A stretch of 64,000 nt of DNA, taken from NCBI RefSeq assembly GCF_008124615.1, contig NZ_VNIB01000016.1, forward strand, positions 1 through 64,000, given 5' to 3'. This DNA is from Geothermobacter ehrlichii (lineage in GTDB: Bacteria > Desulfobacterota > Desulfuromonadia > Desulfuromonadales > Geothermobacteraceae). The translations under genes and the position numbers were made by a program. Under the pieces are notes generated by a model. It saw only the letters and a program-made list of their open reading frames with translations, did not search any database and was not told the DNA's origin. Of this stretch, positions 8,671-64,000 are shown in pieces. The number at the start of each line of letters is the position of its first letter. Within the stretch, counting starts at the first letter, position 1.

Positions 8671-11600
8671 CTAGCCCAGCTTCTCGACGTTGACCATGAA
8701 CGCCTTGGTTTCCGGGATCATGGTATTGGCGTCGCCGATCGTCGGCGTCAGCAGGTTGGCGCTGTCGCCTGCATTCGGCGTGCTCCAGCCGAAGCACCAG
8801 GGCAGACCGACCTGGTGGATGGTCTTCCCCCGGATCCTGAAGGGACGGAACCGCCTGGTGACGATGGCGATCGCCTCGACGCTGCCCCGCCCCGAGCTGA
8901 CCCTGACCTTTTCACCATCTCCTATACCGCGTTCCCTGGCCAGCTCCGGACTCAATTCGACGAACAGCTGCGGTTGCATCTCCAGCAGCCAGGGGGTATT
9001 GCGGGACATGACCCCGGTCTGCCAGTGCTCGGTGACCCGGTAGGTGGTGGCAACGAAGGGATAGCGCTTGTCGGAAGTGTAAAAGACGTCTTCCGGCAGC
9101 CTGTCCTTCCCCTCGTGAAACAGTTTCATGGCCGGATTGTTCCTGGTACCGGACAGAGGGTTCGCTTCGATCGGACTCTCCAGCGGTTCATAGTGTTCGG
9201 GGAAGGGACCCTCCTTCATCTTGGCGCCGAAAATCGAGGCCACACCGTCCGGCAGCATGATGAATGACTTCTTCGAACCGGGCTGAGAGAGCGGTTTCCA
9301 GCCGCCATCGGGAACATCTCCCTCCCACCGGGTACCGGTCCACCAGATGACCGGCCGCTTTCTGTCCCACGGCACCCCGTCAGCATTGACCGAAGCCCGG
9401 TTGTAGAGAATACGCCGGTTGACCGGCCAGCACCAGGCCCACTCGGGGTAGAGGCCGATGCCACTCGGATCCCTGTGGCTGCGCCGGGCCATGTTGTTGC
9501 CGTTGCCGTTGTAGCTCTGGCAGTAGAGCCAGTTGCCCGACGAGGTGGAGCCGTCATCCTGCAGATAGGCGAAGGAGGGTACCAGGTCTCCCTTCTTGAA
9601 GGATTTGCCCTTGACCACCTTGTCGCGGAGGAAGTAGCCGTTGATCTCCCTGGCCACGGCATGGATGTCGATCTTGCGCACCCGGCCGTCCGGCATCCTG
9701 AAACCGTAATTCCAGCTCAGTTTCAGGATCGGGTCGGGAAAAGCGCCTCCTTCGGCGGCATAGCGCTGCCGGACCCGGAAATAGAGTTCGTTCATTATCT
9801 CCGAATCGTGACGGCTGTCGCCAAGGGGCTCCACCGCCTGGTAGCGCCATTGCGCCCAGCGACCCGAGTTGGTAACGCTGCCTTCCTTTTCGAACGACGC
9901 GGCAACCGGCAGGAAGAAGACCTCGGTGTCGATCCTGGCCGGGTCCATGCCCGGCCCCTTCCAGAAGGAGGCGGTCTCGTTGTCGAACAGGTTGACCACC
10001 ACCATCCAGTCGAGCCTGGCCAGCGCCCGGCGCACCTTGTTGGCATTACTGCCAGAACAGGCCGGATTCTGCCCCCAGGCGAAAAAGCCCTTGATCTGAC
10101 CGCGAATCATCCGGTCGAAAAGCATCAGCCAGGAGGCGTTCTGGCCGTCGTCCAGCTTCGGCAGCAGCTGGTAGCCGAACTCGTCCGCCGCCGTCAGGCT
10201 GGTATCGAAATGCGCCCGCAGCAGCGAGGTGATGTACTTGCCGCGGTTGCCCCACCAGTTGGCGCTTTGCGGATCGCCGGTGGTCGGCGTCGTTTTGGCG
10301 ATGTAGGTGGCCAGGTCCTTCAGGCTCGCCTTCGGCGTCGGCAGGTATCCGGGAAGGATGTGAAACAGCAGGCAGTGGTCGGTCGACCCCTGCACGTTCG
10401 ATTCGCCACGCAGGGCGTTGACCCCGCCGCCGGCGACACCGATATTGCCGAGCAGCAGCTGGATGATGGCCATGGTGCGGATGTTCTGGGTACCGACGGT
10501 GTGCTGGGTCCAGCCCATGGCGTACATGATGGTCGCCGCCCGTCCCGGCCTGCCGGTGGAGCCGTAGATCCTGTAGATCTGTTCGAGTTTTTTCACCGGG
10601 GTGCCGGTGATGTCGGAAACGACCTCGAGGGTGTAGCGCGAGAAATGCTTCTTCAGCAACTGGAAGACACAGTTCGGGTCCTCCATCTCCGGGTCGGTTC
10701 GGGGCACGCCGTTCTCGTCACGCTGGAAACCCCAGGTCGACTTGTCGTAGCTGCGGGTCTCGGCATTGTAACCGGAGAACAGGCCGTCCAGCTCCCCGGG
10801 CATCCTGAAACGCGGATCGACCAGGAAGGTCGCGTTGGTGTGCAGCCGCAGGTACTCCCGGTGATACAGCCCGTTTTCCAGGATGTAATTGATCATGCCG
10901 CCGAGAAAGGCGATGTCGGTGCCGCTGCGCAACGGCGCGTAGACATCGGCCCGGGCGCTGGTGCGGGTGAAGCGCGGATCGACGCTCAGAAGCTTGGCGC
11001 CGCGTTCCCTGGCCTCGAGAACGTAACGGAAGGAAATCGGATGATTTTCTGCAGCATTCGAGCCCATCACCAGGATGACATCCGAGTTGCGGATATCGAT
11101 CCAGTGATTGGTCATGGCACCGCGACCGAACGAGGTTGCCAGACTGGCAACCGTGGCGGAGTGTCATATTCGAGCCTGGTGTTCGATGTAGACCAGTCCC
11201 CAGCTGCGCAGCAGCTTCTGCAGCAGATAACATTCCTCGTTGTCGAGGGCGGCACTGCCGACCGAGGCGATGGCGTCGGTACGGTTGACCACCTGCCCCC
11301 TGGTGTTTTTCTCCATGAAAGTCGCATCCCGGGTCGCCTTGATGCGGTCGGCGATCTGGTCGAGCGCCCAGTCCCAGGAAACCACTTTCCACTCCTTCGC
11401 TCCCCGGGCGCGGTACATCGGCACCGTGATGCGCTTCTCGTTGTGACGCAGCTGATAGATCGAAGCCCCCTTGCTGCACAGGGTACCGCGGTTGATCGGG
11501 TGATCGGGATCACCCTCGATGTTGATCACCTCGCCCCCACGGGCATGAACGATCAGGCCGCAGCCGACCGCGCAATAGGGACAGATGGTCGTCGTTTCCC

Positions 11601-11721
11601 TGGCATACTGGATCGCCAGGGGACGGGCTTCGGCTTCCGCCGCCTTCAGACCTACACCGAGCACCGAGCCGGCTATCGCTCCGCCTGAAAACTTCAGAAA
11701 GCTTCGTCTGTTCAGTTGCAT
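8671..11721 (-). CDS. fdnG: Selenocysteine-containing formate dehydrogenase catalytic subunit
   Basis: About 1016 residues, read through one in-frame TGA (11166-11164) as selenocysteine. The context NHQARI-U-H around it, continuing SATVASLATSFGRGAMTNHW, matches the E. coli FdnG active site (NQARV-U-HGPTVASLA). The N-terminus is a Tat signal (NRRSFLKFSGG) and is followed by the [4Fe-4S] motif CPYCAVGC. The enzyme oxidises formate at a Mo/W bis-MGD centre on the periplasmic side. ATG 11721 is 9 nt from GGAGG; ATG 11727 is only 3 nt away. Conceptual translation without recoding splits the gene at 11164, which is not a frameshift because both sides are in one frame. The U residue is number 186. 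Confidence 0.96.
11134..11152 (-). promoter_or_regulatory. SECIS hairpin for selenocysteine insertion
   Basis: On the mRNA a near-perfect hairpin GGUUGCCA-GUC-UGGCAACC begins 11 nt after the UGA. This is the spacing bacterial SelB requires, and the apical AGUCU resembles the AGUCU/GGUCU loops of E. coli fdnG and fdhF. It lies inside the coding sequence. Confidence 0.88.
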
Positions 11722-11833
11722 GATCATTGACCTCCTCTACGCTGGACACATGCCCCGGAATCCGGCTCTCCGGAACCGGTCGGGACCAGGTTCAAAAACA
11801 ATTACGGCAAAAAGCATGCAGAACTGACGAAGC

Positions 11834-11848
11834 GCAATTTATATACCA
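11834..11848 (-). promoter_or_regulatory. Sigma-54 promoter of the fdnGHI-fdhE-mobA operon
   Basis: Minus-strand TGGTATATAAATTGC has the obligatory GG-N10-GC (-24/-12) with TTGC at -12. Transcription would start near 11822, about 100 nt before fdnG. The divergent neighbour is a sigma-54 activator, which supports this reading. Confidence 0.65.
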
Positions 11849-11898
11849 GTGTTTTTCTTCTGGCCGTGGTTTTCATCAATATCGGCAAGTTAGACCTC

Positions 11899-11919
11899 AT
11901 TTCGTCAACATGGCGAAAT
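11899..11919. promoter_or_regulatory. Inverted repeat, possible activator site (UAS)
   Basis: ATTTCG, 9 nt, CGAAAT: a perfect 6+6 dyad centred about 60 bp upstream of the -24 element of the fdnG promoter and in the intergenic region shared with the sigma-54 activator gene. The position suits an enhancer-type binding site. A second dyad centred on CGGTACCG lies near 11957-11964. Confidence 0.4.
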
Positions 11920-12028
11920 TTAACGCCCCTTCTGAGGTTGTATATATTTTACCAATGCGGTACCGTTGATGGGTAAAAAGTATACAGGCACAAATCTCTT
12001 CCTCCCCTTTAAAACAATGGACCGAAAC

Positions 12029-13396
12029 ATGCACGGACGGATCTATATCTGCGACGACGAAGTCGGCATGCTGCGCTATCTGAAAAAGATGCTGGCGGGC
12101 TGGGGCGCCGAGGTAAAGACCTTTGAATGCCCGCTGACCATGCTCCAAGCGTTGCGGGGAAACGGCCCGGCCGCCGATCTGCTGCTGCTGGACATCAGGA
12201 TGGCAGAAATGGACGGGCTGGAAACACTGCGCCAGGTTCGCAGCCTCCTTCCGGAGCTGCCGGTCATCATGATGACCGGACACGGCAGCATCGAGTCGGC
12301 GGTCGAGGCGATGAAACTCGGCGCCCAGAACTACCTGACCAAACCCTTTCCCCAGGAACAGCTGCGCGCCGTCATCGAACAGTCACTGCAGCGCAGGAAA
12401 CTGCTGGAAGAAAACCGCAACCTGAAACAGAAGCTGAACCGGGAATCGGGACAGCAGGAAGTCGTTTTCAAAAGTGCCCTCTTCGCCGAAATCTACGATC
12501 TCGCCATGCGGGTCACCGGTGTCGATTCCCCGCTGCTGATCCTGGGGGAAAGCGGCTGCGGCAAGGAACTCGTCGCCAGGGACGTCCATCGGCACAGTCC
12601 GCGCAGCAACGCTCCCTTTCTCGCCATCAACTGCGCCGCCCTGACCGAACCCCTGCTCGAAAGCCAGCTCTTCGGCCATGTCAGGGGGGCCTTTACCGGC
12701 GCGCTGCAAAATCGGCAGGGTCTGCTGGCCGCGGCCGAGGGAGGCACCCTGTTTCTCGACGAAATAGGCGAACTGAGTCCGGCACTGCAAGCCAAGCTGC
12801 TGAGGGTACTGCAGCAGGGAGAGTATCTGCCGGTCGGCTCCACCCGACCCAGACACGCCGATGTCCGCTTCATGGCCGCCACCAACAGAAACCTGGAGGA
12901 GGAAGTCGCGGCCGGGCGTTTCCGTGAAGATCTCTATTACCGGCTCAACGTCATCACCCTCGAACTGCCTCCCCTGAGACGTCGCCCGGAAGACATACCT
13001 CCCCTGGTCGAACACTTTCTCGCCAAGGTCGCCGAACGGCTGGGGCAACCGCGCAAACGGGCCGACAGGGAGTTTCTCACCTGCCTGCACCGCTACGGCT
13101 GGCCCGGCAACGTCCGGGAGCTGGAAAACGTCATCGAACGCAGCGTCGTCCTGGCGCGCGGCGACACCCTGACTCCCGACCTGTTGCCGGCGAAAATCAG
13201 ACACGCAGAGGTGCCTCCGGAAGCGCCCTTCCTCGAATCCTACACCCTGCGCGACGCTGAAAAACTCCAGATCAGCCGGGCGCTGGACAAGACCGGCTGG
13301 AACAAGAGCCGCGCCGCCGAACTGCTCGGCATCACCCGCAAGACCCTCGACAAGAAAATTCGCGACTTTCAGCTCGCCCCGGAGAAACCCCGTTGA
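12029..13396 (+). CDS. Sigma-54-dependent response regulator (NtrC family)
   Basis: 455 residues from ATG 12029. The receiver domain (1-120) has the acidic pocket CDDE, phospho-acceptor Asp near residue 55 in LLLLDIRM and Lys in LTKPF. The AAA+ domain (about 145-380) has Walker A GESGCGKE, the sigma-54-contacting GAFTGA loop and Walker B GGTLFLDEIGEL. A Fis-type helix-turn-helix (NKSRAAELLGITRKTLDKKI) ends the protein. Upstream ATGs at 11966 and 12017 are in frame but lack a ribosome site; 12029 has a weak GGA at 7 nt and gives a normal receiver N-terminus. Divergent from fdnG, whose promoter has sigma-54 form, so it probably activates that operon. It overlaps the next gene by 4 nt. Confidence 0.92.
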   Translation: MHGRIYICDDEVGMLRYLKKMLAGWGAEVKTFECPLTMLQALRGNGPAADLLLLDIRMAEMDGLETLRQVRSLLPELPVIMMTGHGSIESAVEAMKLGAQNYLTKPFPQEQLRAVIEQSLQRRKLLEENRNLKQKLNRESGQQEVVFKSALFAEIYDLAMRVTGVDSPLLILGESGCGKELVARDVHRHSPRSNAPFLAINCAALTEPLLESQLFGHVRGAFTGALQNRQGLLAAAEGGTLFLDEIGELSPALQAKLLRVLQQGEYLPVGSTRPRHADVRFMAATNRNLEEEVAAGRFREDLYYRLNVITLELPPLRRRPEDIPPLVEHFLAKVAERLGQPRKRADREFLTCLHRYGWPGNVRELENVIERSVVLARGDTLTPDLLPAKIRHAEVPPEAPFLESYTLRDAEKLQISRALDKTGWNKSRAAELLGITRKTLDKKIRDFQLAPEKPR

Positions 13397-52681: not shown

Positions 52682-55087
52682 TCAGCGTCCACCGGTGGCC
52701 CGCTCCTTGTCCAAACAGTCCTCCATGCCGATGGGCAAGCGCACCGGCTGCCCCGGAATCAGGGTCACGGCCTGACTGCAGTGGCGGATATCGAGGGAGC
52801 GGCCATCCCGCAGCAGGTAGATAACCTCTTCGTGGTCCATCTCGACGGTCAGTTGCTGCCCCCGGACCTGCAGATGAAAACGCAACCGCCGGATCGCCGG
52901 CGGCAGATGGGGACGGAAGGTGATCTCGCCCTGCTCGTCCCGCATGCCGGCAAAACCGTAGACCATTACCATCCAGGTGCCCCCCATGGAGGCGATGTGG
53001 CACCCGTCCCGCACATTGCCGCCGACATCGGCCAGGTCCATCAAAATGGCGTAGCGGGCGTAATGCAGGGCCTTTTCCATGTCGCCGATCTCGGCAGCGA
53101 CAATGCTCTGAATGCAGGCCGAAAGCGATGAATCACCCGTGGTCAGAGGATCGTAATAGGTGAAATTGCGGCGTTTTTCCTCCGGGGAGAATTCACTGCC
53201 GAGCAGAAACATGGCCAGCACGATGTCGGCCTGCTTGATCACCTGATGGCGATAGATGACCAGCGGGTGATGATAGAGCAGCAGCGGAAATTTGTCCTTG
53301 GGCGTACTGGCGAGATCCCAGATCTCGCGATCGAGAAAGTTGTCGTCCTGGGGGTGAATCCCCGTCTCCTCGTCGTAAGGGATGTACATCTTCGCCGCCG
53401 CTTCCGCCCAGTCGGCGATCTCTTCGTCGCGCAGGCCGGTGCGATGAACCAGCGTCGCGTAATAGTCCGGCGCCTCCTGCCGCATGTGGGTGACCGTCTC
53501 GGCGGCATAGAGCAGATTGAGACGCGCCATCAGGTTGGTGTAGGTGTTGTTGTTGACCACGGTGGTGTATTCGTCCGGCCCGGTGACGCCGTGGATGCAG
53601 AACTGCCCGTTCAGCCGCGGGTTGAAAAAGCCCAGGTCATACCAGAGCCGGGCGGTTTCGACCAGGATTTCCGCCCCTTCGTTGTAGAGCAGGGAGATAT
53701 CGCCGGACGCCTCGACATACTTTTTCAGGGCATAGACGATATCGGCATTGATGTGGTACTGGGCCGTGCCGGCGGCGTAATAGGCCGAGGCCTCCTCGCC
53801 GTTGATCGTCCGCCAGGGGAAGAGCGCGCCCTTCTGGTTGACCTCACGCGCCCGCTGCCGCGCCCTGTCGAGCATCGAGTGCCGGAACTTGAGCAGGTTG
53901 CGCGCCACCCGTGGCGCCGTGTAGGTCAAAAAGGGGAGGACGTAGATCTCCGTGTCCCAGAAATAGTGCCCCTCGTAGGTCTGGCCGGTCAGCCCCTTGG
54001 CAGGAATCCCCGTCCCCTCGGCCCGGGCCGAGGCCTGCAAAATCTGGAACAGATTCCAGCGCAGGGCCTGTTGCAGTTCTCCCGGCGGCCGGTGGTGCAG
54101 AGCCGGATCGCCCTCGACCTCGACATCGCTGCGCGACCAGAAATCGTCCAGAAAGCTGCGCTGTCCCTTGAGCAGGCTGTCAAAGCCGTCGCGCATCGAC
54201 CGGTCGAGGGTCCGCTCGGCCCGCTCGCACAGCTCCTCACAGGGGGCGCTGCGCGAACTGTGATAGGTGATGAACTTGAACAGCTGAATAGGCTGTCCCG
54301 GACGGGCGTCGACACAGAAGACCACCTTGCTCCCTTCGTCGAAGCGTTCGGCCTTCGCTTCGTACTGACAGTCGGTGATCAGCTGGTGGTCGACACCGCA
54401 GGCGATGGTCATGCCGCTGTTGGCCACCCGGTGCGCCAGCAGCAGCCGCCAGTCGCGATTTCGGTGCACCTGGGGGATCATCACCTGGTGCGAGAACCCC
54501 CGTGCCTGCCGCGGATCTTCTTCTCCCACCTGGTTGGTCTGGTTGCCCGATATCTTCGAGGAGATCACCACCGGAGCCTCGGCATTGAGTACCGTCACCT
54601 GATAGGAGATGGCCGCCACATGCCGATGCTGCAGTGAGACCAGTCGCCGGCTCTCGATCAGCACCCGCTTGCCGGAAGCGGTTTCCCAGAGGATCTCCCG
54701 GTCGAGGGTACCGGCACGCATGTCGAGTACCCGCTCGTAGAGCTGCAGACTGGCGGTCGGCAGGAAGAAGGGTTCGTCATCGACATAGAGCTTGATCTGC
54801 TTGGCGTCGGTGACATTGAGCATGGTCTGGCCGGTCTTGGCGAAACCGTAGGCCTTTTCGCCGTAGACGATCGGCCAGGTCTCGTGGAAGCCGTTGATGA
54901 AGGTGCCGTTCTGGAAGCAAGGACGCCCCTCTTCATAGTTGCCACGCATGCCGACATAGCCGTTGCCGATGGCGAACAGGGTCTCGGTCTGGGCGAGAAA
55001 CGGCTCGTAATAGGCCGTCTCGATGATCTTCCACTCGTTGATCGGGTAGAGATGCTGGGGAGGGTTGAGGGTTTCGTGGCGGATCAT
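52682..55087 (-). CDS. Glycoside hydrolase family 65 disaccharide phosphorylase
   Basis: 801 residues of the GH65 family (trehalose, kojibiose or maltose phosphorylase). The N-terminal beta-sandwich starts ETLFAIGNGYVGMRGNYEEG; the (alpha/alpha)6 barrel has GHYFWDTEIYVLPFL and the catalytic acid Glu near residue 505 in GVTGPDEYTTVVNNNTYTN. It splits an alpha-linked disaccharide with phosphate to beta-glucose-1-phosphate and glucose. The directly downstream beta-phosphoglucomutase supports that product. The exact disaccharide cannot be told from the sequence. Confidence 0.9.
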   Translation of the reverse strand: MIRHETLNPPQHLYPINEWKIIETAYYEPFLAQTETLFAIGNGYVGMRGNYEEGRPCFQNGTFINGFHETWPIVYGEKAYGFAKTGQTMLNVTDAKQIKLYVDDEPFFLPTASLQLYERVLDMRAGTLDREILWETASGKRVLIESRRLVSLQHRHVAAISYQVTVLNAEAPVVISSKISGNQTNQVGEEDPRQARGFSHQVMIPQVHRNRDWRLLLAHRVANSGMTIACGVDHQLITDCQYEAKAERFDEGSKVVFCVDARPGQPIQLFKFITYHSSRSAPCEELCERAERTLDRSMRDGFDSLLKGQRSFLDDFWSRSDVEVEGDPALHHRPPGELQQALRWNLFQILQASARAEGTGIPAKGLTGQTYEGHYFWDTEIYVLPFLTYTAPRVARNLLKFRHSMLDRARQRAREVNQKGALFPWRTINGEEASAYYAAGTAQYHINADIVYALKKYVEASGDISLLYNEGAEILVETARLWYDLGFFNPRLNGQFCIHGVTGPDEYTTVVNNNTYTNLMARLNLLYAAETVTHMRQEAPDYYATLVHRTGLRDEEIADWAEAAAKMYIPYDEETGIHPQDDNFLDREIWDLASTPKDKFPLLLYHHPLVIYRHQVIKQADIVLAMFLLGSEFSPEEKRRNFTYYDPLTTGDSSLSACIQSIVAAEIGDMEKALHYARYAILMDLADVGGNVRDGCHIASMGGTWMVMVYGFAGMRDEQGEITFRPHLPPAIRRLRFHLQVRGQQLTVEMDHEEVIYLLRDGRSLDIRHCSQAVTLIPGQPVRLPIGMEDCLDKERATGGR

Positions 55088-55090
55088 CGG

Positions 55091-55873
55091 CTAAGCCTCC
55101 TGTTGCGACAGGGATTCCGGCAGCAGCTCGACCAAGTCACGAACCACGATATCGGCGCCGGCGGCGGCCAGCCGTTCGGCGTCGCCCTGCCGGTCGACGC
55201 CGATGACCAGACCGAAACCACCGTTGCGGCCGGCCTCGATGCCGGAAATGGCGTCCTCGACCACCACCGCCTCGGCCGGCGGCACCGACAGCAGCTCCGC
55301 CGCCTTCAGGTAGGTGTCGGGAGCCGGCTTGCCCGGCAGTCCGAGATCGCTGGCAACATGACCGTCGATACGCTGGTCGAACAGATCCTCGATCCCGGCG
55401 GCGCGCAGCACCGCCGGACAGTTCTTGCTGGCCGAAACGACAGCTGTCGCCAGCCCCTGTTGGCGCAGCCAGCGAACCAGCCGGATCGACCCCTCGAAGA
55501 CGTCGACTCGTTCCGAGGCGAGAATCTCACCTACCATGGCGTCCTTGCGATTGCCCAGGCCGCAGACCGTTTCCCGTTCGGGGGAATCGTCCGGTGAGCC
55601 ATCCGGCAATTCGATGCCGCGCGACGCCAGAAAGGAGCGCACGCCGTCGTAACGCAACCGGCCGTCGACATATTCATGGTAATCCCGCACCGAATCGAAG
55701 GGCTCGAAAGACATCTTCCGCTCGGCCGCCCACCGCTTCAGAAAAGAGTCGAACATCCGCTTCCAACAGATGGCGTGGATCTTGGCCGTTGCCGTCAGCA
55801 CGCCATCGAGATCGAACAGCACCGCCCGGTAACGGCCCCAGTCGACCGGCAGGTTCGGGTTTCCTCCGTCCAT
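55091..55873 (-). CDS. pgmB: Beta-phosphoglucomutase family HAD hydrolase
   Basis: 260 residues: HAD motif I AVLFDLDGVLTATA, motif II VVSASKN, motif III Lys in LPGKPAPDTYLKAAELL and motif IV VVEDAISGIEAGRNGGFG. Converts beta-glucose-1-phosphate to glucose-6-phosphate. ATG 55873 has GGGAGG 7 nt upstream. It is 3 nt ahead of the GH65 gene and forms a two-gene disaccharide-use unit with it. Confidence 0.9.
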   Translation of the reverse strand: MDGGNPNLPVDWGRYRAVLFDLDGVLTATAKIHAICWKRMFDSFLKRWAAERKMSFEPFDSVRDYHEYVDGRLRYDGVRSFLASRGIELPDGSPDDSPERETVCGLGNRKDAMVGEILASERVDVFEGSIRLVRWLRQQGLATAVVSASKNCPAVLRAAGIEDLFDQRIDGHVASDLGLPGKPAPDTYLKAAELLSVPPAEAVVVEDAISGIEAGRNGGFGLVIGVDRQGDAERLAAAGADIVVRDLVELLPESLSQQEA

Positions 55874-55983
55874 ATCTGCGCCTCCCGTAGTTTTCTGCAT
55901 CGAATCAGTAAATTCAATGCCTTATCGAGCATATCAGACCTTGGCCGGGAGACAAGAGTCCGCCCCCCTTTCCGCGGCATTTT

Positions 55984-56012
55984 TTGTCGAAAGCCGTCAA
56001 TTTCGCTACAGT
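55984..56012 (+). promoter_or_regulatory. Candidate promoter of the five-gene cluster
   Basis: TTGTCG (55984-55989), 17-nt spacer, TACAGT (56007-56012). A CCCCC-TGC-GGGGG hairpin lies in the leader (56060-56072) before ATG 56103. Confidence 0.4.
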
Positions 56013-56102
56013 CACGCCATCATCCCTGCTATGCTTTGAGCAGATTGAGGCCATGCGGCCCCCTGCGGGGGACAGAAGACGAGAGCGTCGAGCCACCAAT
56101 CC

Positions 56103-56951
56103 ATGTCCGAAGCCAAACAGACCGACAGACTTCTGCAGCAGATCCGGCAGGGACAGACCTTTTCCGACACTGACTACCGCGGCATCGCCCGAATCAGGGT
56201 CCGCCGCGACTTGCCGCTGGTCTGCGTCGCCCTGCACGACGGAAGCGCCTTCCCTTCCGATCTCGAACCGCTCTGCCGCCTGTCGCCGGCCGAACGCCTG
56301 TTCGAGGAAGACCCCCACACCGCCGGCCTGCTCGAAGGCATGCCCGTGCTTCTGGCCGGTCGGGAATCCCGCTATTTCTACGACCTGAACCGCTCGCCGG
56401 CAAAGGCCGTCGATCCCGTCGCCTTCGGCCGGAAAATCTGGCGCCAGGGAGCGCATCCCGATCCGGCGCGCGCCCAGGCCAGGCACCGCGCCTTCTACCG
56501 CCTGGCCGAAGTCCTGATCGACCGTCTGGTTCGGCGGCACGGACACTGCCTGGTCATCGACCTGCATGCCTACAACGCCTCGAAAATCGACCGCCCGACC
56601 CCGCTGTTCAATCTCGGCACGGCAGCCATCGACGAACGGCGCCACCGTCCCCTGCTCGACTTCCTTCTCCGCCGCCTGCAACAGATCGACCTGCCCGGTA
56701 CAACAACCCGGGTGGCGGAAAACGATGTCTTTCAGGGGCGCGGCCATTTTGTCAACTGGCTCGGCCGTCGTTTTCCCGACGTTCTGCCCCTCTGTCTCGA
56801 AGTGAAGAAAATCTACTGCGATGAACACAGCGGCGTACTGAACCGAAACGTTTACGATGCCCTGGCCGTTCAGCTGCCGGCAGCCCTGCACGACCTCTAT
56901 CGCCGCTACCGGCAACAGCACCGGAAGCGGCCGGGAGACAACGGGCCATGA
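56103..56951 (+). CDS. N-formylglutamate amidohydrolase family protein
   Basis: 282 residues. Zinc-hydrolase features of the FGase family are visible: VCVALHDGSAFP, a central LVIDLHAYN (metal ligand His) and a late Glu in LPLCLEVKKIYCDEHSGVLN. Family members cleave N-formylglutamate, but many homologues lie in unrelated clusters and probably act on other N-acyl or peptide amides. It heads a five-gene run with 4-nt overlaps and contains no histidine-degradation neighbours, so I do not assign the classical reaction. Confidence 0.8.
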   Translation: MSEAKQTDRLLQQIRQGQTFSDTDYRGIARIRVRRDLPLVCVALHDGSAFPSDLEPLCRLSPAERLFEEDPHTAGLLEGMPVLLAGRESRYFYDLNRSPAKAVDPVAFGRKIWRQGAHPDPARAQARHRAFYRLAEVLIDRLVRRHGHCLVIDLHAYNASKIDRPTPLFNLGTAAIDERRHRPLLDFLLRRLQQIDLPGTTTRVAENDVFQGRGHFVNWLGRRFPDVLPLCLEVKKIYCDEHSGVLNRNVYDALAVQLPAALHDLYRRYRQQHRKRPGDNGP

Positions 56952-59900
56952 TGTCGTTGCTGCGCAGGCTGGCCATTCAGGACGACGAAGCCGCTCCTTT
57001 TGTCTGGAGCGCCCTTGTGCTCCTGCTGGTCAACATCGCCAGCTTCGTGCTCAACAATTATGCCGAAACCACCTTCCTCAAGCGGTTCGGGGTCGAGTAC
57101 CTGCCCCAGATCACCGCCATCAACGCCATTGTCACCTTCGTTCTGCTCAATTTTTTCGGCGGCCGCCTGGGACGCGTCCGGGGCAACCGGCTCCTCTTCG
57201 GCACCCTGCTTTGCTATGCCCTGCTCTCCGCCGCCCTGCGCCTGGCCGTCAACTTTCAGTTCAGCCTCATCTACCCCCTGCTCTACATCCTGAAAACCCA
57301 GTACAACGTGCTGCTGGCCTTTCTGTTCTGGAACCTGGCCAGCGACCTTTTCAGTGCCCGCCAGGCCAAGCGTCTCTTTCCGCTGATTACCTCCGGCGGC
57401 ATCTTCGGCGCCATTTGCGGCAGTCTGGCTACCCCCGTCCTCGTCAACTGGATGCCCACCGACCAACTCCTGCTGGTCTTTGCCCTGATGGCCGGGCTGG
57501 CCGCCGTCTGCGCGCTGCCCCTCGGACGGTTCGTTCCCGTCATGCTCTCCTCCCGGCAACGACAGGCACCGGTCAGTGACATATCCCTGCTGGGAGAGTT
57601 CCGCCAAGTCGGCCCGCTGCTGCGCAGCTCGACTCTGGCGAAAATCCTGCTCCTGCTCACCCTGCTGCCGAACCTGGTCATCCCCATCCTCAACTACCAG
57701 TTCAGCTACATCGCCGACATGTCCTTCGCCGCCGAAAAGTCGCTGATCAACTTCTTCGGCTATTTCCGCAGTATCCAGAACGGCATCGCCCTGGTGCTCA
57801 GTCTGGTGGCCGGCCGGCTCTACGGCCGTTTCGGCCTGGCGGTCTCGCTCATGTTCCATCCGGCCAACTATCTTTTCGTCTTTGCCGCCCTGCTGCTGAA
57901 ATTCAACCTCCCTTCCGCCGTCTACGGCAACCTGTCGGCGGGCGTTCTTCGTCGGGCGATCAACAATCCGGCCGCTTCCGCCCTCTACAGCCTGCTCTCG
58001 CCGGAGGAAAGGGCCATCCTGCGCCCCTTCCTGCGCGGTACCGTCGTCCGCATCGCCATCCTCGCCGGCTCGGGACTGCTCTGGTTCAGCAACATGTTCA
58101 TGCCGCCCCGCTACCTCGCCGTTTACGGCCTCGTTTTCGGCGGACTGTGGCTCACCGCGGTCTTCCGGCTCAAACGCAGTTATCCGGCGATTCTCACCCG
58201 AGTGGTCGAACAGACGCTGCCCGACTTCCACCGCATGGGACGGGAATTCGGCATCCTGTTCAAGGGACAGAACCTCGAACAGACCCTGCTCGACCGGTTG
58301 CGCGACGCCGAGGGAGAGGAGGCGCGCTGGTGCGCCGAAATGCTCAAGGAGGCGGGCTGCACCGAAAAACTCGACCGGGCCATTCTCGAAAAGCTGCCGC
58401 GCACCGACGACCAGACCCGCATCCTGCTTCTGCCCCTGCTGTCGGAACATGCCGGCCGCGAGGTCCTCGACCTGTTCCTTTCGTTGCGCGATCCGCACAA
58501 GCCGCAACTGATGCTGGCCCTGGCCTGCACGGCGCATCGTGTCTTCGCCGACATGCCGGGGGACGAAGAGGAAACCACATTCCGGATCGCCGAGATCTCC
58601 GAAGTCAAGGCCTGCTTCCTCGGCTGGATGGCCAAGGACGATCCCAAGCTCCTCGACCGAACGATCGCATCCTGGATCGAATCGCCGGACCCCGGCAAGA
58701 GACGGGCCGCCTTCCTCGCCCTGCAGGCGCACGGCGAGCCCCGTCACCTGCCCCTGCTCGAACCGCACCTGACGATGGAGCAGGACCGTTCGGTACTGGC
58801 TCTGGCTCTCTACGCCCTGCCGAGAGTCGCCGGCAGCCGGAGCGGCGAACTGGTTCTGCCCTTTCTCGGCCATGCCGACCCCCTGGTCCGGCAGGCGGCG
58901 GTCAGCGCCCTGTCTCCCGAAGACGAGGCGGGGGCCCTTCGCCTTGTCCAGGCCCTCGGCGATCCGGCCGAAAAGATCCGCAAGCTGGCGATGCGCAAGC
59001 TGGAACAGCTTCCTCGCACCCTCTATCCGCTGCTGCTCGAACGCATGACCAGCCACAGCCGCTGGATCCGGGACGGCCTGTTCGAAGTGGCCACCCATCT
59101 CGAGCTGCAGGACAAGGACTTCTACCGCTTCTGCCTCAACCAGCTGCGCCAGGCCTACCAGACCCTGCTCTGGAGCGACCCGGTCGCCGACAGGCCGCAG
59201 AACGCCGCCTCCCGCCTGCTGCTGCGCCACCTGGAAGAACGGCGGCGGCAGCATCTGGCCAACGCCATCCGGGTGCTGGTGGCACGAGACGAGAACGGAC
59301 AGCTGGAAACGGCCTGGCGCGCCCTGCAGTCGTCCGAGCTCCGGCAACGCCAGGATGGCATGGAGGCCCTGGAATCGCTGCTCGCCCCCCGTCTGGCCAG
59401 GCTGATTCTTCCCCTGCTCGAGGAGACACCGGACAGAAAGCTGTACCGTCTCGCCCATCGGCATCTCGGCCTGAGAAGGGGATCGGAAAAATCGACCTTC
59501 GGCCACATGCTGGACGATACCGACTGGGTCACCGTCGTCCTGATGCTGGAATCCCTGGCCGGCTGGAAGGAAGTGGCCGGCTGGAGACAAACCATCGAAA
59601 AACTCGCCGCCGAAGGGAAGGCGGCGGTGGCCCATGCCGCCCGGCACGCCCTGCTTGCCGCCGAAGGGACATACGAGGAAGACCTGAGCTGTCTCGTCGA
59701 CCGTATCGAAAACATCCGCCACGTCGATCTCTTTTCCGAACTGACCACGGCCCAGCTCGCCGCCGCGGCCTGGAAATCGACCGTCATCCGCTGCGCCGAC
59801 GGCGAGGTGATCGCCGGTACCGAACGGCCGCACAAGGGCCTGCTGCTGACCGTCGAAGGCGAAGTCGCCTTTGTCAGGACGGACCCCGAAGCCAAGGGCC

Positions 59901-60658
59901 CGGGACGGGAACTGCACCGCATCGGCCCGGGCGACTGGTTCGGGGCCGCGGTCATGTTCGGCATGCCGCCGAAACGGATGCTCGCCGCCGTGGCACGAGG
60001 CCGGACCCTGCTGATCCAGATCGACCGGGAGACCTTTCATCAGCTCGTCCTGCAGAATCCGGAACTGGGGCTGAAAATCGCCAAGGGACTGGCCAAGGTG
60101 GTCGGCGACGTGCTGCAGGGGCTGAACCGCCCCCCGCGCCGCATCGACGACGAGCGCGGCGACGACATCTACGCCCTGCAGGGGTCCTACTGCAGCAGCG
60201 AAGACGAATGCTCTCTCTACGAACGCATGCGCCTGCTGCGCCAGATCGACCTTTTCGTCGACCTCGACAACCGGCCGCTGACCGCCCTGGCCATGGTCGG
60301 CCGGGAACAGACCCTGAAAGCCGGGGCCGAACTGCGGGAAAACGACCTCGACGGAACCGGCCTCTTCCTGGTCGCGTCGGGAGAATTGATCGTGGCGCGG
60401 CAGCGGCACCCCTTGCAGCGCAAGGGGCCGGGCAGCTATTTCGGCCTGGCATCCCTCTTCGAACTGCATATCGAGGGGCTGGTGATCCGGGCTGAAACCG
60501 ACAGCCATCTGGTGCGGATTCCGCCGGAGGAATTCCGCGCCAGCGTGCTGGAACATCCGGTGATCGCCATCAAGTGCTGCGAGGCGCTCAGTCGCCTGCA
60601 GAGCCGTCTGCTCGACGAGGTTCTCGCCGCCGACACAGTCGAAGGAGCGCCCCCTTGA
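56948..60658 (+). CDS. NTT nucleotide-transporter-like protein fused to HEAT repeats and two cNMP-binding domains
   Basis: 1236 residues. Residues 1-410 are about twelve membrane helices like the ATP/ADP (NTT/TLC) transporter family, with KTQYNVLLAFLFWNLASDLF and RQAKRLFPLITSGGIFGAICG as family-like segments. About 420-910 are soluble helical HEAT-type repeats (for example PLVRQAAVSALS). About 920-1060 and 1095-1225 are two cyclic-nucleotide-binding-type beta-barrels (LLLTVEGEVAFV, PGDWFGAAVMFG; LFLVASGELIVAR, PGSYFGLASLFELH). HEAT/CNMP-fused NTTs are known in free-living bacteria but their substrates are not established. The ATG overlaps the upstream stop by 4 nt. Confidence 0.82.
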   Translation: MMSLLRRLAIQDDEAAPFVWSALVLLLVNIASFVLNNYAETTFLKRFGVEYLPQITAINAIVTFVLLNFFGGRLGRVRGNRLLFGTLLCYALLSAALRLAVNFQFSLIYPLLYILKTQYNVLLAFLFWNLASDLFSARQAKRLFPLITSGGIFGAICGSLATPVLVNWMPTDQLLLVFALMAGLAAVCALPLGRFVPVMLSSRQRQAPVSDISLLGEFRQVGPLLRSSTLAKILLLLTLLPNLVIPILNYQFSYIADMSFAAEKSLINFFGYFRSIQNGIALVLSLVAGRLYGRFGLAVSLMFHPANYLFVFAALLLKFNLPSAVYGNLSAGVLRRAINNPAASALYSLLSPEERAILRPFLRGTVVRIAILAGSGLLWFSNMFMPPRYLAVYGLVFGGLWLTAVFRLKRSYPAILTRVVEQTLPDFHRMGREFGILFKGQNLEQTLLDRLRDAEGEEARWCAEMLKEAGCTEKLDRAILEKLPRTDDQTRILLLPLLSEHAGREVLDLFLSLRDPHKPQLMLALACTAHRVFADMPGDEEETTFRIAEISEVKACFLGWMAKDDPKLLDRTIASWIESPDPGKRRAAFLALQAHGEPRHLPLLEPHLTMEQDRSVLALALYALPRVAGSRSGELVLPFLGHADPLVRQAAVSALSPEDEAGALRLVQALGDPAEKIRKLAMRKLEQLPRTLYPLLLERMTSHSRWIRDGLFEVATHLELQDKDFYRFCLNQLRQAYQTLLWSDPVADRPQNAASRLLLRHLEERRRQHLANAIRVLVARDENGQLETAWRALQSSELRQRQDGMEALESLLAPRLARLILPLLEETPDRKLYRLAHRHLGLRRGSEKSTFGHMLDDTDWVTVVLMLESLAGWKEVAGWRQTIEKLAAEGKAAVAHAARHALLAAEGTYEEDLSCLVDRIENIRHVDLFSELTTAQLAAAAWKSTVIRCADGEVIAGTERPHKGLLLTVEGEVAFVRTDPEAKGPGRELHRIGPGDWFGAAVMFGMPPKRMLAAVARGRTLLIQIDRETFHQLVLQNPELGLKIAKGLAKVVGDVLQGLNRPPRRIDDERGDDIYALQGSYCSSEDECSLYERMRLLRQIDLFVDLDNRPLTALAMVGREQTLKAGAELRENDLDGTGLFLVASGELIVARQRHPLQRKGPGSYFGLASLFELHIEGLVIRAETDSHLVRIPPEEFRASVLEHPVIAIKCCEALSRLQSRLLDEVLAADTVEGAPP

Positions 60659-61167
60659 AGCCGTCAGAGATAAAACTTGTCTGCCTGCCGCCGGACAGGC
60701 TGGACGAGAGCCGCCTGGACATGCTGGCCGCCTTCATCCGCCGCCACGGCCGGGTACCGCCCGGCAGGGTGCGCGCCAACCTGGAGAAGGCCTACCGCAT
60801 CGCCTGGGCCGAAGTCGCCGGCCGCCTGGCCGGGGTCTCCTGCCTGAAACGCCCCCGGCCGGCCTATCTGCAGGACCTGGGCGCTCGGCTCGGTTTCGTT
60901 CTGGATGGCTTTCTGGAACGCGGCTATACTTGTGTCAGTCCCGACCGGCAGGGAGCTGGCATCGCCACGGCCCTGACGACCCGGCTGACGGAAGAGGCCG
61001 GGGATCGTCCCTTCTACGTTCTGGCGGCCGAAACCAACCCGTCGATCAACAGCATCCTGCTGGCGGGAGGCATGGTCAGAATCAAGGCTTTCGACAGTGA
61101 AAAGGCCGGTCGGCGGCTGGCCTTCTGGGTTTCTCCCCCCGGCGCCAGGCGCCTCGGGCTATCCTGA
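60655..61167 (+). CDS. GNAT family N-acetyltransferase
   Basis: 170 residues. The acetyl-CoA-binding motif A is DRQGAGIATALTTRLTEEAG, followed by a motif B-like VLAAETNPSINSILLAGGM. The substrate is unknown. Translation starts at a TTG that overlaps the previous stop (TTGA), with GGAG 7 nt upstream inside the previous gene. Co-translation with the transporter-like fusion suggests a shared pathway. Confidence 0.8.
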   Translation: MKPSEIKLVCLPPDRLDESRLDMLAAFIRRHGRVPPGRVRANLEKAYRIAWAEVAGRLAGVSCLKRPRPAYLQDLGARLGFVLDGFLERGYTCVSPDRQGAGIATALTTRLTEEAGDRPFYVLAAETNPSINSILLAGGMVRIKAFDSEKAGRRLAFWVSPPGARRLGLS

Positions 61168-61194
61168 CCCCTTACGCAAGCAACAGGAGAAACG

Positions 61195-62331
61195 ATGCGC
61201 ATCGACAACCTGCGAAAAGAGACGGCCGACGGCCTGGTCCGCATCGCGGCGACCGTGCAGTGGGAAGACTGCGACGCTCCCGACCGGGAGGTCTGGTTTG
61301 CCACCGAACCGGAGTACGCGGATGCCCTGTGGCTGACCGCCGATCCCTTTCTGCTCGGCACCCTGCTGCCGGCCCTGGAAAAGGGCGAGCGACGTCTTTC
61401 CATCGCCGCCGACCTCTGCCCGCGTCTGCTGGAGGGGCTGCAAACCGCCCTCGGCATCCTTGTCTCCTGGTACGGCGACCGTTACCGGGCCATCCCCATC
61501 GAAGGAACCGGGCTGCGACTGCCCCGTCCCGATCGCCTCGACCATACCGCCGTCTTCATGTCCGGCGGCATCGACGCCCTGGCCGCCCTGCGCATCAATC
61601 ATCTGCACTACCCGCCCGGACATCGCAACCGCATCCGCAGCGGCATTCTGATGCACGGATTCGACATCGGCGGCGTCATCCGGCATGGCAGCAAGCAGCA
61701 CGTTCACGACCGGGCCCGCCGGTTTCTGCAGCCGGTGGTCGAGGAGACCGGCATCGAACTGATTCCGGCCTGGACCAACGTCCGCCACCTGCACGACGAC
61801 AGCGCCTTCTTTCTCGGCAAATATTTCGGCGCCCTGCTCTGCAGCATGGCCCAGGCTCTGACCGGCCGTATCGACCGGGTGGTCCTTGCCTCATCCTACG
61901 ACCTGGAGAATCTCGGGCCCTGCGGTTCGCATCCGATGCTGGACCATCTCTACGGCAGTGCCGATCTCGAAGTCTTTCACGCCCAGCCGGAAATGCGCCG
62001 CATTGACAAGTTGCGCCTGATCGCCGACTGGGAAACCGGCCTGCACAACATGCGCGTCTGCCTGCAGAACGTCCCCGACCGTCTCAACTGCGGCTGGTGT
62101 GAAAAATGTCTGCGCACCATGGCCGGACTGGTCGCCCTCGGCAAGCTCGAACAATCGAGGGCCTTCGAAGAATCCGACCTGGACGCCGAACTCTTTTCCC
62201 GGGCCAGGATGACCATCAACCACCGCGAGCCTTTCTATATCGAGATGATCGAACCGTTGCGCGCCGCCGGCCGGAACGACCTGGCCGACGTCATCGTGAA
62301 CAGGCTCGCCGCCGAAGGGAAACTGCCGTGA
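61195..62331 (+). CDS. PP-loop ATPase superfamily protein (adenine nucleotide alpha-hydrolase fold)
   Basis: 378 residues. The pyrophosphate loop is AVFMSGGIDALAALR near residue 120 (SGGxDS with Ala for Ser). A Cys cluster NCGWCEKCLRTMAGL near 298-310 resembles the zinc- or cluster-binding end of QueC/ExsB and related enzymes. PP-loop enzymes adenylate a carbonyl to make amides, nitriles or thio-compounds. The family is annotated in databases mostly as hypothetical; the reaction is unknown. AGGAG is 5 nt before the ATG. Confidence 0.75.
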   Translation: MRIDNLRKETADGLVRIAATVQWEDCDAPDREVWFATEPEYADALWLTADPFLLGTLLPALEKGERRLSIAADLCPRLLEGLQTALGILVSWYGDRYRAIPIEGTGLRLPRPDRLDHTAVFMSGGIDALAALRINHLHYPPGHRNRIRSGILMHGFDIGGVIRHGSKQHVHDRARRFLQPVVEETGIELIPAWTNVRHLHDDSAFFLGKYFGALLCSMAQALTGRIDRVVLASSYDLENLGPCGSHPMLDHLYGSADLEVFHAQPEMRRIDKLRLIADWETGLHNMRVCLQNVPDRLNCGWCEKCLRTMAGLVALGKLEQSRAFEESDLDAELFSRARMTINHREPFYIEMIEPLRAAGRNDLADVIVNRLAAEGKLP

Positions 62332-63365
62332 GAATCGCCTTTCTGCGCGGACCGCTGGGGCACATCAACCCCGACACCGAAACATCGATCCTGCTGATGT
62401 ACGAATGCCATCTGCGGAGCCACCAGGTCTTTTTTCTCGAACCACACGACCTCTACATCCGCAACAACCGCGTCGTCGGCCGGATGCGGGAAATCACCGC
62501 TCCCGCCGACTGTGATCTGCACGCCTTCTGGCGTCACGCCATCGCCTGCGTCGAAGACGAGAAGAAGATCTTCGAGGAACTGCGCGAACTCGATGTCCTC
62601 TTTCTGCGCAAGAACCCGCCGCTGCTGATGGAAATGATGGAGCTGCTCGCCTCGGTCGAGGACCAGGTCTTTCTGATCAACAGCCTGCGCGGTCAGCTGC
62701 TTGGCAGCAGCAAGCTCTACACCCTCAATTTCCCCGACATCATTCCCGAAACCCACGTCTCCCGCGACCCCGCGCGACTGCGGCGGATCATCGACGATTT
62801 CGGCGGCACCATGGTGATGAAGCCGCTGCGCGGTTTCGGCGGCCAGGGGGTGATCAAGGTCAGCGCCAGTGATCCGGAAAATCTCAATTCCCTGCTCGAT
62901 TTCTACGTGCGGGTCAACGAACCCTACCACCGCCGGGAGCCGATCATGGTGCAGGAATTCATCGAGGCGGTCCGCACCGACGGCGACATACGCATCATGC
63001 TGCTCAACGGCGAAGTGCTCGGCGCTTTCCGCCGCATGCCGCACGGCACCGACTTTCGCGCCAATCTCCGCGCCGGCGGCGATTATTTTCCGCACGAACT
63101 GACGCCGCAGCAACAGCATATCTGCGACGTGATCCGCGAGCGGCTGATCCGCGACGGTCTCTATTTCGTCGGCATCGACATCATCGGCGACAAGCTGATC
63201 GAAATCAACTGCGTCAGCCCCGGTGGCATCCCGCGCATCAACCAGTTCACCAACCAGCGGCTGGAAAAGAAGGTGGTCGACTTTCTCGAAAGGATGGCGG
63301 CCGAAAAAAGCGGCGGCTCAAATCCTGTCGCGCCACGCTTCCCCCCCGAAACGGGGCTGTGTTAA
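62328..63365 (+). CDS. ATP-grasp ligase, prokaryotic glutathione synthetase-like
   Basis: 345 residues. GshB-like start (MRIAFLRGPLGHINPDTETS), pre-ATP-grasp domain with DVLFLRKNPPLLMEMMELLA, ATP-binding KPLRGFGGQGVIKV near residue 165, and metal-binding LIEINCVSPGGIPRIN at the end. Such enzymes ligate a carboxylate to an amine or thiol-bearing amino acid. No glutamate-cysteine ligase is nearby, so glutathione synthesis is not supported; a different peptide-like product is likelier. Start is a GTG overlapping the previous stop by 4 nt (GTGA). Confidence 0.85.
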   Translation: MRIAFLRGPLGHINPDTETSILLMYECHLRSHQVFFLEPHDLYIRNNRVVGRMREITAPADCDLHAFWRHAIACVEDEKKIFEELRELDVLFLRKNPPLLMEMMELLASVEDQVFLINSLRGQLLGSSKLYTLNFPDIIPETHVSRDPARLRRIIDDFGGTMVMKPLRGFGGQGVIKVSASDPENLNSLLDFYVRVNEPYHRREPIMVQEFIEAVRTDGDIRIMLLNGEVLGAFRRMPHGTDFRANLRAGGDYFPHELTPQQQHICDVIRERLIRDGLYFVGIDIIGDKLIEINCVSPGGIPRINQFTNQRLEKKVVDFLERMAAEKSGGSNPVAPRFPPETGLC

Positions 63366-63416
63366 GCTTTTTCTCATACCCTGCATTCAATCCAAGATCA
63401 CTCAGGGAGGAGAGCG

Positions 63417-64000
63417 ATGTTCAAGCTTGAGGATTCACGACTGCTGCGGCAGCAGTGCTATGTCGACGGAGAGTGGATCGACGCCGAGGACGGCGCCACC
63501 CTTCAGGTGAGCAATCCGGCCACCGGCGAACCCCTCGGCACCGTCCCCCGGCTGGGCGCGGCCGAAACCCGACGCGCCATCGAGGCGGCCGATCGTGCCT
63601 GGCGGCAGTGGCGGGCGAAGACCCCCGGCGAACGGGCCGCTATCCTGCGGCGCTGGGCGGAGCTGATGCTGGAAAACCAGGACGACCTCGGTCGGCTGAT
63701 GACCGCCGAACAGGGCAAGCCCCTGGCCGAGGCGAAGGGGGAAATCGCCTACGCCGCCTCCTTCCTCGAATGGTTCGCCGAAGAGGCCCGCCGCATCTAC
63801 GGCGACATCATCCCGCCTCACCAGAACGACAAGCGCATCCTGGTGCTCAAGCAGCCGGTCGGGGTCTGCGCCGCCATCACGCCCTGGAACTTCCCCTCGG
63901 CAATGATCACCCGCAAGGCCGGAGCGGCCCTGGCCGCCGGCTGCACCATGGTGGTCAAGCCGGCCTCGGCCACCCCCTATTCCGCCCTGGCGCTGGCCGA
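63417..64000 (+). CDS. gabD: NAD(P)-dependent aldehyde dehydrogenase, succinate-semialdehyde type (partial)
   Basis: The first 194 residues are visible; the gene continues past the right edge. [20 protein letters not shown], then [20 protein letters not shown] and [18 protein letters not shown] match succinate-semialdehyde dehydrogenases closely. The catalytic Cys and Glu lie outside the window, so substrate is by family resemblance. GGGAGG precedes ATG 63417. It is 51 nt after the ATP-grasp gene and may be a separate unit. Confidence 0.82.

Follow-up and report, generated by a model that had tools for sequence, protein, structure and literature searches.

The gene cluster

This article is about a row of five genes in Geothermobacter ehrlichii, encoding an amidohydrolase, a transporter-like fusion protein, an acetyltransferase, a PP-loop enzyme and an ATP-grasp ligase. 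They lie in a window of 64,000 nucleotides, the whole stretch of DNA that was analysed, which forms the start of a 76-kb contig (NZ_VNIB01000016.1) in a genome of 3.24 Mb with a completeness of 100. The nearest named relative that we encountered is Geothermobacter hydrogeniphilus (L010). An earlier note on this window had described five plus-strand genes with four-nucleotide overlaps of stop and start codons at 56948, at 60655 (with a TTG start) and at 62328 (with a GTG start), together with one gap of 27 nucleotides. All of this is indeed found in the sequence: five plus-strand open reading frames (ORFs) occupy positions 56103-63365, the overlaps read ATGA, TTGA and GTGA, and the only gap separates the third gene from the fourth.

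P0001 (56103-56951, 282 amino acids, ATG start) encodes an amidohydrolase of the FGase type, that is, of the N-formylglutamate amidohydrolase superfamily (PF05013). For P0002 (56948-60658, 1236 amino acids, ATG start), Pfam matches and the predicted fold point to an NTT-type transporter joined to HEAT repeats and two cNMP-binding domains. A weak Pfam match and a conserved loop suggest that P0003 (60655-61167, 170 amino acids, TTG start) is a GNAT-fold N-acetyltransferase. P0004 (61195-62331, 378 amino acids, ATG start) would be a PP-loop enzyme with a QueC/QatC-like fold, according to its AlphaFold2 model and its motifs, and P0005 (62328-63365, 345 amino acids, GTG start) is a GshB-like ATP-grasp ligase with GSH-S_N and GSH-S_ATP domains. 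Homologues of the GNAT, the PP-loop enzyme and the ligase align mostly from the first residue of the query, hence the start codons used agree with the relatives. The GC content of the five-gene stretch, 0.63-0.66, is ordinary for the window, and no sigma-70-like promoter was found in 55850-63600, where 0.8 would be expected from shuffles.

Conservation of the set

A same-strand row of five ORFs is not unusual by itself; it is the togetherness kept in relatives that exceeds chance. Scanning 84,980 species genomes with P0004 returned 10 loci, which together with the window and four further genomes give 15 distinct loci with close PP-loop homologues (42-54% identical to P0004, window included). 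These correspond to about 13 independent loci, because L013, L014 and L015 are 94-97% alike; L011 and L036 share a contig and were counted once, and L020 repeats L010. A GNAT and at least one ATP-grasp ligase are present in 15/15. The NTT gene occurs in 11 of the 15 (cut by the contig end in L012); three of the four loci that lack it, L013, L015 and L016, end at contig ends, and the fourth, L017, has no NTT gene in the 7.5 kb upstream. All five gene types were found in six loci, in one of which (L037) no cNMP domain is seen in the NTT protein. The arrangement is not constant: in six loci the NTT, GNAT and PP-loop genes point in one direction and the ATP-grasp and FGase genes are often flipped, and in eight the genes for the GNAT, a RimK-type ligase and the PP-loop enzyme run together. 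Since order and strand differ between groups, the linkage is not merely inherited gene order.

The pattern across the phylum was followed in one set of 296 genomes, to which all phylum-wide counts given here refer. GNAT homologues were found in 18 genomes at E<=1e-8, and 17 were kept; G338 was dropped (E 2.8e-12), its locus L064 having no other member of the set. For the NTT protein, 27 genomes matched at E<=1e-40, and we kept the 20 with full-length matches, dropping seven in which only the transmembrane part matched. P0005-like proteins number 39, consisting of 21 at 54% identity or more (the cluster type) and 18 at 40% or less. The close PP-loop set comprises seven genomes, G197 and three genomes at 26-29% being left out; in G294 the PP-loop homologue, at 29%, adjoins an NTT gene (L042). 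With kinship ignored in every p value, 17/17 strong-GNAT genomes fall within the 20 NTT genomes (Fisher p 6e-25) and within the 21 genomes with a cluster-type ligase (p 3e-24), and 7/7 close PP-loop genomes fall within the GNAT set (p 5e-10). The NTT and ligase sets have 19 genomes in common. GNAT and NTT genes lie no more than 20 kb apart in 14 of the 17 genomes and on different contigs in the other three.

The five genes are therefore a conserved set that belongs together, and a chance row is rejected by the co-conservation in the 15 loci and the phylum-wide pattern. The earlier note had suggested a genome-neighbourhood search, in which homologous genes scattered with no co-occurrence would speak against a unit; the search finds them kept together, both in the 15 loci and among the 296 genomes. 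The "five-gene cluster" is thus retained with one refinement, namely that the PP-loop and FGase genes are not universal; it is the transporter, the GNAT and the ATP-grasp ligase or ligases that recur most constantly. Certain relatives have additional genes. Oligopeptide-type ABC genes stand between the RimK and NTT genes in L052 and L054, which fits a peptide-like object, and a sulfatase-modifying-factor-type protein is encoded near the cluster in some loci. RimK-GshB tandems occur in 5/7 further loci that have no GNAT match nearby.

The five proteins

P0002 has Pfam matches above cut-off to cNMP_binding (two stretches) and HEAT_2, and its match to TLC/NTT (PF03219), 20.0 bits, is just under the cut-off of 21; the relatives in L014 and L037 score 31.2 and 24.2 bits against the same family. 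The NTT-type domain spans about residues 1-430. The predicted fold of residues 1-433 matches ATP-bound AtNTT1 (Z 33.0, 410 residues, 3.2 A) and C. pneumoniae NTT1 (Z 32.8), the next carrier being LacY (Z 27.9). The AlphaFold model of this membrane domain has a predicted local distance difference test score (pLDDT) of only 68.3, and the models of the PP-loop enzyme and the NTT domain were built on shallow alignments of 11 and 6 rows. On the strength of the model, the membrane domain has the NTT fold. A second NTT-type protein of this genome (G000:C7:63330-64553) shares 43% identity with P0002 over the membrane part of the latter.

The earlier note had listed this fusion as a member of an unrecognised five-gene cluster; the NTT-HEAT-cNMP architecture itself was already published in 2017 by Major et al. 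(PMC5381601). In the part of that paper considered here, such fusions are reported in Deltaproteobacteria among other groups, the cyclic nucleotide-binding domain is duplicated in the oomycete proteins, and the authors suggest that cyclic AMP (cAMP) from adenylate cyclases may tune transport. The domain order is equal to that of P0002. However, the same part of the account makes no mention of ligase, GNAT or PP-loop partners, whereas in our case the NTT gene accompanies an amide-ligase set and, in relatives, cyclase genes too. Class III cyclase genes are found near the cluster in L012, L038 (two) and L039 by Pfam and in L016, L052, L053, L058 and L060 by our own hidden Markov models (HMMs). 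The transporter probably senses cAMP.

P0003 scores 20.0 bits against Pfam Acetyltransf_1, just under the cut-off of 20.7, and in a profile search of PDB its best GNAT reaches only E 0.0074. It is 29-41% identical to nine cluster homologues and shares with them an acetyl-CoA loop of the RGxGIG type, which reads RQGAGIA in P0003; judging from this loop it is a GNAT. In loci of the Desulfobacterales type a longer protein ends in the GNAT, and the RimK-type ligase gene lies between the GNAT and PP-loop genes. The L053 protein (10109-12421, minus strand) combines B12-binding, radical SAM and GNAT parts, and the GNAT of L058 (9938-12247, minus strand) is likewise fused to a B12-binding radical-SAM protein. 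In four further loci (L012:3836-5833, L014:6859-8853, L016:1979-3970, L017:7560-9056) the GNAT protein carries an extra N-terminal part, which our own HMM also finds in the L053 fusion. This part has no Pfam match in L014, the copy scanned, and is possibly a decayed radical-SAM protein in all four.

The earlier note called P0004 a PP-loop ATPase. PP-loop enzyme it is, and the predicted fold narrows this to a QueC/QatC-like one. P0004 has no match in Pfam, in NCBIfam (QueC PF06508 included) or among PDB sequences; the L014 copy reaches QueC PF06508 only at E 0.054 and 13.4 bits, below the cut-off of 22, and the family profile gave two chance-level PDB matches (E about 0.7) whose titles concern an unrelated protein. 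Of the structure prediction that the earlier note had suggested for the five proteins, two runs were made: the one for residues 1-433 of P0002 described above, which gave an NTT-like fold, and one for P0004. With VIA-align the AlphaFold2 model of P0004 is best matched by QatC (Z 13.8 over 302 residues, range 1-370), then by QueC (Z 11.2 over 177 residues) and Cap9 (Z 10.1); Foldseek alone found no match at E<=0.001, and the model drops below pLDDT 50 at the GSHP loop and in some of the cysteine region. Profile comparison gave weak probabilities in the same order, QatC 52.6 and QueC 10.0 with a narrow alignment, QatC 87.7 and QueC 25.0 with a wider one.

The motifs complete this picture. C-x9-C-x2-C-x2-C is present in 11/11 members of the PP-loop family, and with equal spacing in 15/15 QueC proteins from relatives. 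The [ST]HP motif is found in 11/11 of the family, in 10/14 QatC and in 0/15 QueC proteins. Conversely, the QueC substrate motifs YPDC, VPxRN and YxQxHxxE are each seen in 15/15 QueC proteins and in 0/11 of this family. P0004 thus looks, on its predicted fold, like a QueC/QatC-like enzyme with a zinc-type motif of four cysteines. With QueC, QatC and Cap9, whose chemistry is already published (PMC13329287, PMC13279940), it shares the predicted fold, the SGGxD[SA] motif and the four cysteines, and with QatC also the [ST]HP motif and, if the model is right, an N-terminal and perhaps a C-terminal extension. Unlike them, it has other gene partners, and it is not among the ten clusters published in the portions of those two papers considered here.

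More distant PP-loop homologues are encoded in gene clusters of a surface-polysaccharide or glycan type (L021, L040, L041, and plasmids L107, L108, L109 and L110, where they are annotated "hypothetical protein"), which agrees with amide chemistry directed at carboxylates and not at one fixed nucleobase. L022-L024 show another setting, where a beta-keto acid cleavage enzyme is present together with an unrelated GNAT. We rejected a mobile element as explanation of the gene: P0004 matches 13 plasmid records, all at less than 60% identity and all typed non-mobilizable, and in 4/4 of those inspected a polysaccharide-type gene lies next to or near the PP-loop homologue. A defence system was rejected as well, as PADLOC yielded nothing notable apart from weak matches of the HEAT and cNMP type in P0002, and there was no match to a phage record.

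P0001 matches Pfam FGase PF05013 with 71.1 bits (cut-off 28.9). Its identity to four cluster homologues is 52-60%, and LHxGxxFP, ESRYxYDLNR and DLHxYN stretches are conserved. It falls far short of TIGR02017, the equivalog of the N-formylglutamate deformylase HutG (17 bits against 278.75). From these matches we regard P0001 as an amidohydrolase of the FGase superfamily that is not HutG. Histidine degradation, which the earlier note had set aside for want of hut genes, is rejected on this ground; the search for hut genes themselves did not reach beyond the cluster to the rest of the genome. In Photobacterium sp. DA100 (L111:6001-8995) a GshB-like ligase gene also stands directly before a gene with an FGase domain, and the two resemble an add/remove pair. 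There, however, the FGase is fused to MATCAP, a domain of the tyrosine-carboxypeptidase type, and our own HMMs found no NTT, GNAT or PP-loop gene in the 13-kb stretch.

Finally, P0005 matches GSH-S_ATP with 174.8 bits and GSH-S_N with 65.3 bits, and it stays below every glutathione-synthetase equivalog cut-off (TIGR01380, 237.3 against 299.05; NF003573, 259.8 against 272), the latter being just passed by its relative in L052 (272.3). Its likeness to bacterial GshB is plain, in that both GSH-S domains are present and it is 32-40% identical to the 18 classic-type proteins of the phylum. Yet in a maximum-likelihood tree 17 cluster-type proteins form one clade (support 95/97), separate from 14 proteins of the classic type that include an annotated gshB; the Photobacterium copy is outside both, on a long branch. 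GCS2-type GshA (glutamate-cysteine ligase) is absent from 18/21 genomes with a cluster-type ligase, and the other GshA family, PF04262, from all 21; GCS2 is present in 17/18 genomes with the classic type. Because 18 of the 21 carriers lack both GshA families searched, a function other than glutathione synthesis is supported, and by these sequence comparisons the cluster-type ligase is generally not a glutathione synthetase. The earlier note had reached a similar opinion because no GshA was seen. This is true of the cluster only, since a GCS2-type GshA is encoded elsewhere in the genome; the three carriers with GCS2 are this genome and two relatives of the same family.

Presentation of the hypothesis

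Starting from the observed domain identities, the co-occurrence, the fold matches, the separate ATP-grasp clade and the cyclase neighbours in relatives, we propose that the set is a conserved module for building, processing and moving one small acetylated, amide-linked (peptide-like) metabolite. The balance tips only slightly in favour of this proposal, which is close to what the earlier note had in mind, a small amide- or peptide-like compound, perhaps nucleotide-linked, that is made, acetylated, trimmed and possibly transported or sensed; that remains, in our opinion, the best reading, with its reactions taken from the families. The GshB-like ligase would activate a carboxylate with ATP and join units of the amino-acid type, and in many relatives the second, RimK-type ligase beside it would take part in joining units. 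The GNAT would cap an amino group, taking the acyl group from acyl-CoA. The QueC/QatC-like enzyme may adenylate a carboxylate and then, using ammonia or an amine, convert it to an amide, and the FGase-type hydrolase could process or recycle the product by cleaving an N-acyl amide. The cargo of the NTT transporter would be the product itself, or else a nucleotide that is exchanged with it or required for it. The module is probably under cAMP control, in that the two cNMP domains would let cAMP from neighbouring cyclases set transporter activity.

Several points weigh against the proposal. Each reaction, the substrates, the product, the direction of transport and cAMP as the ligand are drawn from family knowledge. 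The GNAT and TLC domain scores of the window proteins are just below the Pfam cut-offs, and the Fisher p values (5e-10 to 1e-26) assume independence between genomes that are in fact related, the 17 genomes belonging to seven families. The PP-loop gene is missing in about half of the GNAT/NTT genomes and the FGase gene is absent from many loci, so the common core must be able to do without these two steps. The activity of the window copy of P0004 is in doubt, because an alanine replaces the last serine of the SGGxDS motif: it reads SGGIDA (61561-61578), where 10/10 aligned relatives have SGGxDS. (A Nostoc plasmid homologue also reads SGGIDA.) GshA in this genome may leave a glutathione role for P0005 here, and the fusion of the GNAT to a B12/radical-SAM protein in some relatives means that products may differ between groups.

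What may be new is the combination of the five gene types. A description of it was not found in the literature searched, nor was a published pathway with the same set, which the earlier note had named as a result that would speak against it. Iyer et al. 2009 lay outside that search; they reportedly described ATP-grasp/GNAT peptide-ligase neighbourhoods, in which ATP-grasp ligases are said to be combined with GNATs in predicted peptide pathways. In the sources as far as considered here, the NTT-HEAT-cNMP architecture, QueC/QatC chemistry and the theme of linked ATP-grasp/GNAT pathways are known (for the last, PMC4431377 and PMC2922099). The first of these two makes general remarks on linked ligases and, in the part considered, differs from our case by no mention of NTT, QueC-like or cyclase members.

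Alternative explanations

The pathway to N-acetylglutaminylglutamine amide (NAGGN) uses acetylation, ATP-grasp ligation and amidation, and in TIGR03103 a GNAT and an ATP-grasp domain are joined. One could therefore imagine that the cluster makes a compatible solute of this kind, an N-acetyl dipeptide amide produced by GNAT, ATP-grasp and an amidating PP-loop enzyme for osmotic balance. The three chemistries are equal, and the opposite-strand neighbours include MscK-like and NhaA proteins, which is weak evidence. However, TIGR03103 matches neither P0003 nor P0005, GNAT and ATP-grasp being separate genes here; none of the five proteins has the asparagine-synthetase-type amidotransferase domain of the NAGGN systems (TIGR03103/TIGR03104 type), and an NTT protein with two cNMP domains has no place in the known pathway. 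We regard this explanation as unlikely.

Glutathione or a derivative is another candidate, which we think rather unlikely. In this case P0005 would be the organism's GshB and would work together with the GshA encoded elsewhere in the genome; acetylation or amidation of glutathione, for which glutathione amide is a model, would fall to the GNAT and the PP-loop enzyme. The GCS2-type GshA of this genome speaks for it, as do the near miss of P0005 and the narrow pass of its L052 relative at NF003573, and P0005 is the genome's only P0005-like GshB at E<=0.001. As a general role it is made unlikely by the clade of its own that the cluster-type ligases form and by the 18/21 carriers without GshA, GCS2 being the rule with the classic type.

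A nucleobase- or nucleotide-linked peptide is a more specific idea, and distinctly improbable in our view. Here the ligase or ligases would build a short acetylated peptide, the QueC/QatC-like enzyme would couple a carboxylated base-like or sugar-like partner to it through an amide bond, and the cAMP-gated NTT protein, which belongs to a family of nucleotide carriers, would move the conjugate through the membrane as a cofactor or signal.

We give still less credit to a protein modification like that of QatC and Cap9. In this reading the PP-loop enzyme would act on a partner protein, joining its N-terminus to a small acid, and the purpose might be defence or regulation. That QatC is the best full-length fold match to P0004 and that the whole family has the [ST]HP motif would favour it. 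Nevertheless, the PADLOC models of QatC do not match P0004 at E<=1, NF041925 has no match in this genome, qatA/B/D-type genes were not seen at the cluster loci in Pfam scans covering selected neighbour ORFs, no phage record matched, and partners such as the ligase, the GNAT and the NTT protein suggest a metabolic role.

Graspetide-like maturation, in which ATP-grasp, GNAT and radical-SAM enzymes tailor a ribosomal precursor peptide, is highly improbable: the L053 fusion is closest to C-methyltransferases of ribosomally synthesised and post-translationally modified peptides (TIGR03975, 120.7 bits, cut-off 281.85) and is adjoined by a SPASM radical SAM gene, but the overlaps and the 27-nucleotide gap leave no room for a precursor gene in the window operon (one same-strand M-to-stop stretch of 40 codons lies upstream), and P0005 has GSH-S_N and a glutathione-synthetase-type match, not one to a graspetide-maturase model.

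Neighbouring genes

The transcription unit may contain six genes, because a GabD-type succinate-semialdehyde dehydrogenase gene (63417-64000, running past the window end) begins 51 nucleotides downstream of P0005 on the same strand, and its homologue recurs close to the ATP-grasp gene in L010 and L019. The assignment is based on the full gene copy (L018:418-1875), which scores 875.8 bits against NF008415 (cut-off 828). On the other side, a gene pair for a GH65-type glycoside phosphorylase/hydrolase and a beta-phosphoglucomutase-like protein adjoins the cluster on the minus strand (52682-55900).

Implications of the hypothesis

NTT-HEAT-cNMP proteins are found from bacteria to oomycetes and, in the part of Major et al. 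considered here, stand without an assigned function (PMC5381601). Their tight genomic coupling to an amide-ligase clade and a GNAT would offer them a testable metabolic context, and the neighbouring cyclases a source of cAMP. For annotation, it follows that a protein labelled glutathione synthetase can be part of a different pathway where GshA is missing from the genome. The set also adds a QueC/QatC-like branch with partners of its own. Should the product turn out to be a nucleotide-linked peptide, NTT-HEAT-cNMP proteins would gain a first function, and QueC-type chemistry a third use.

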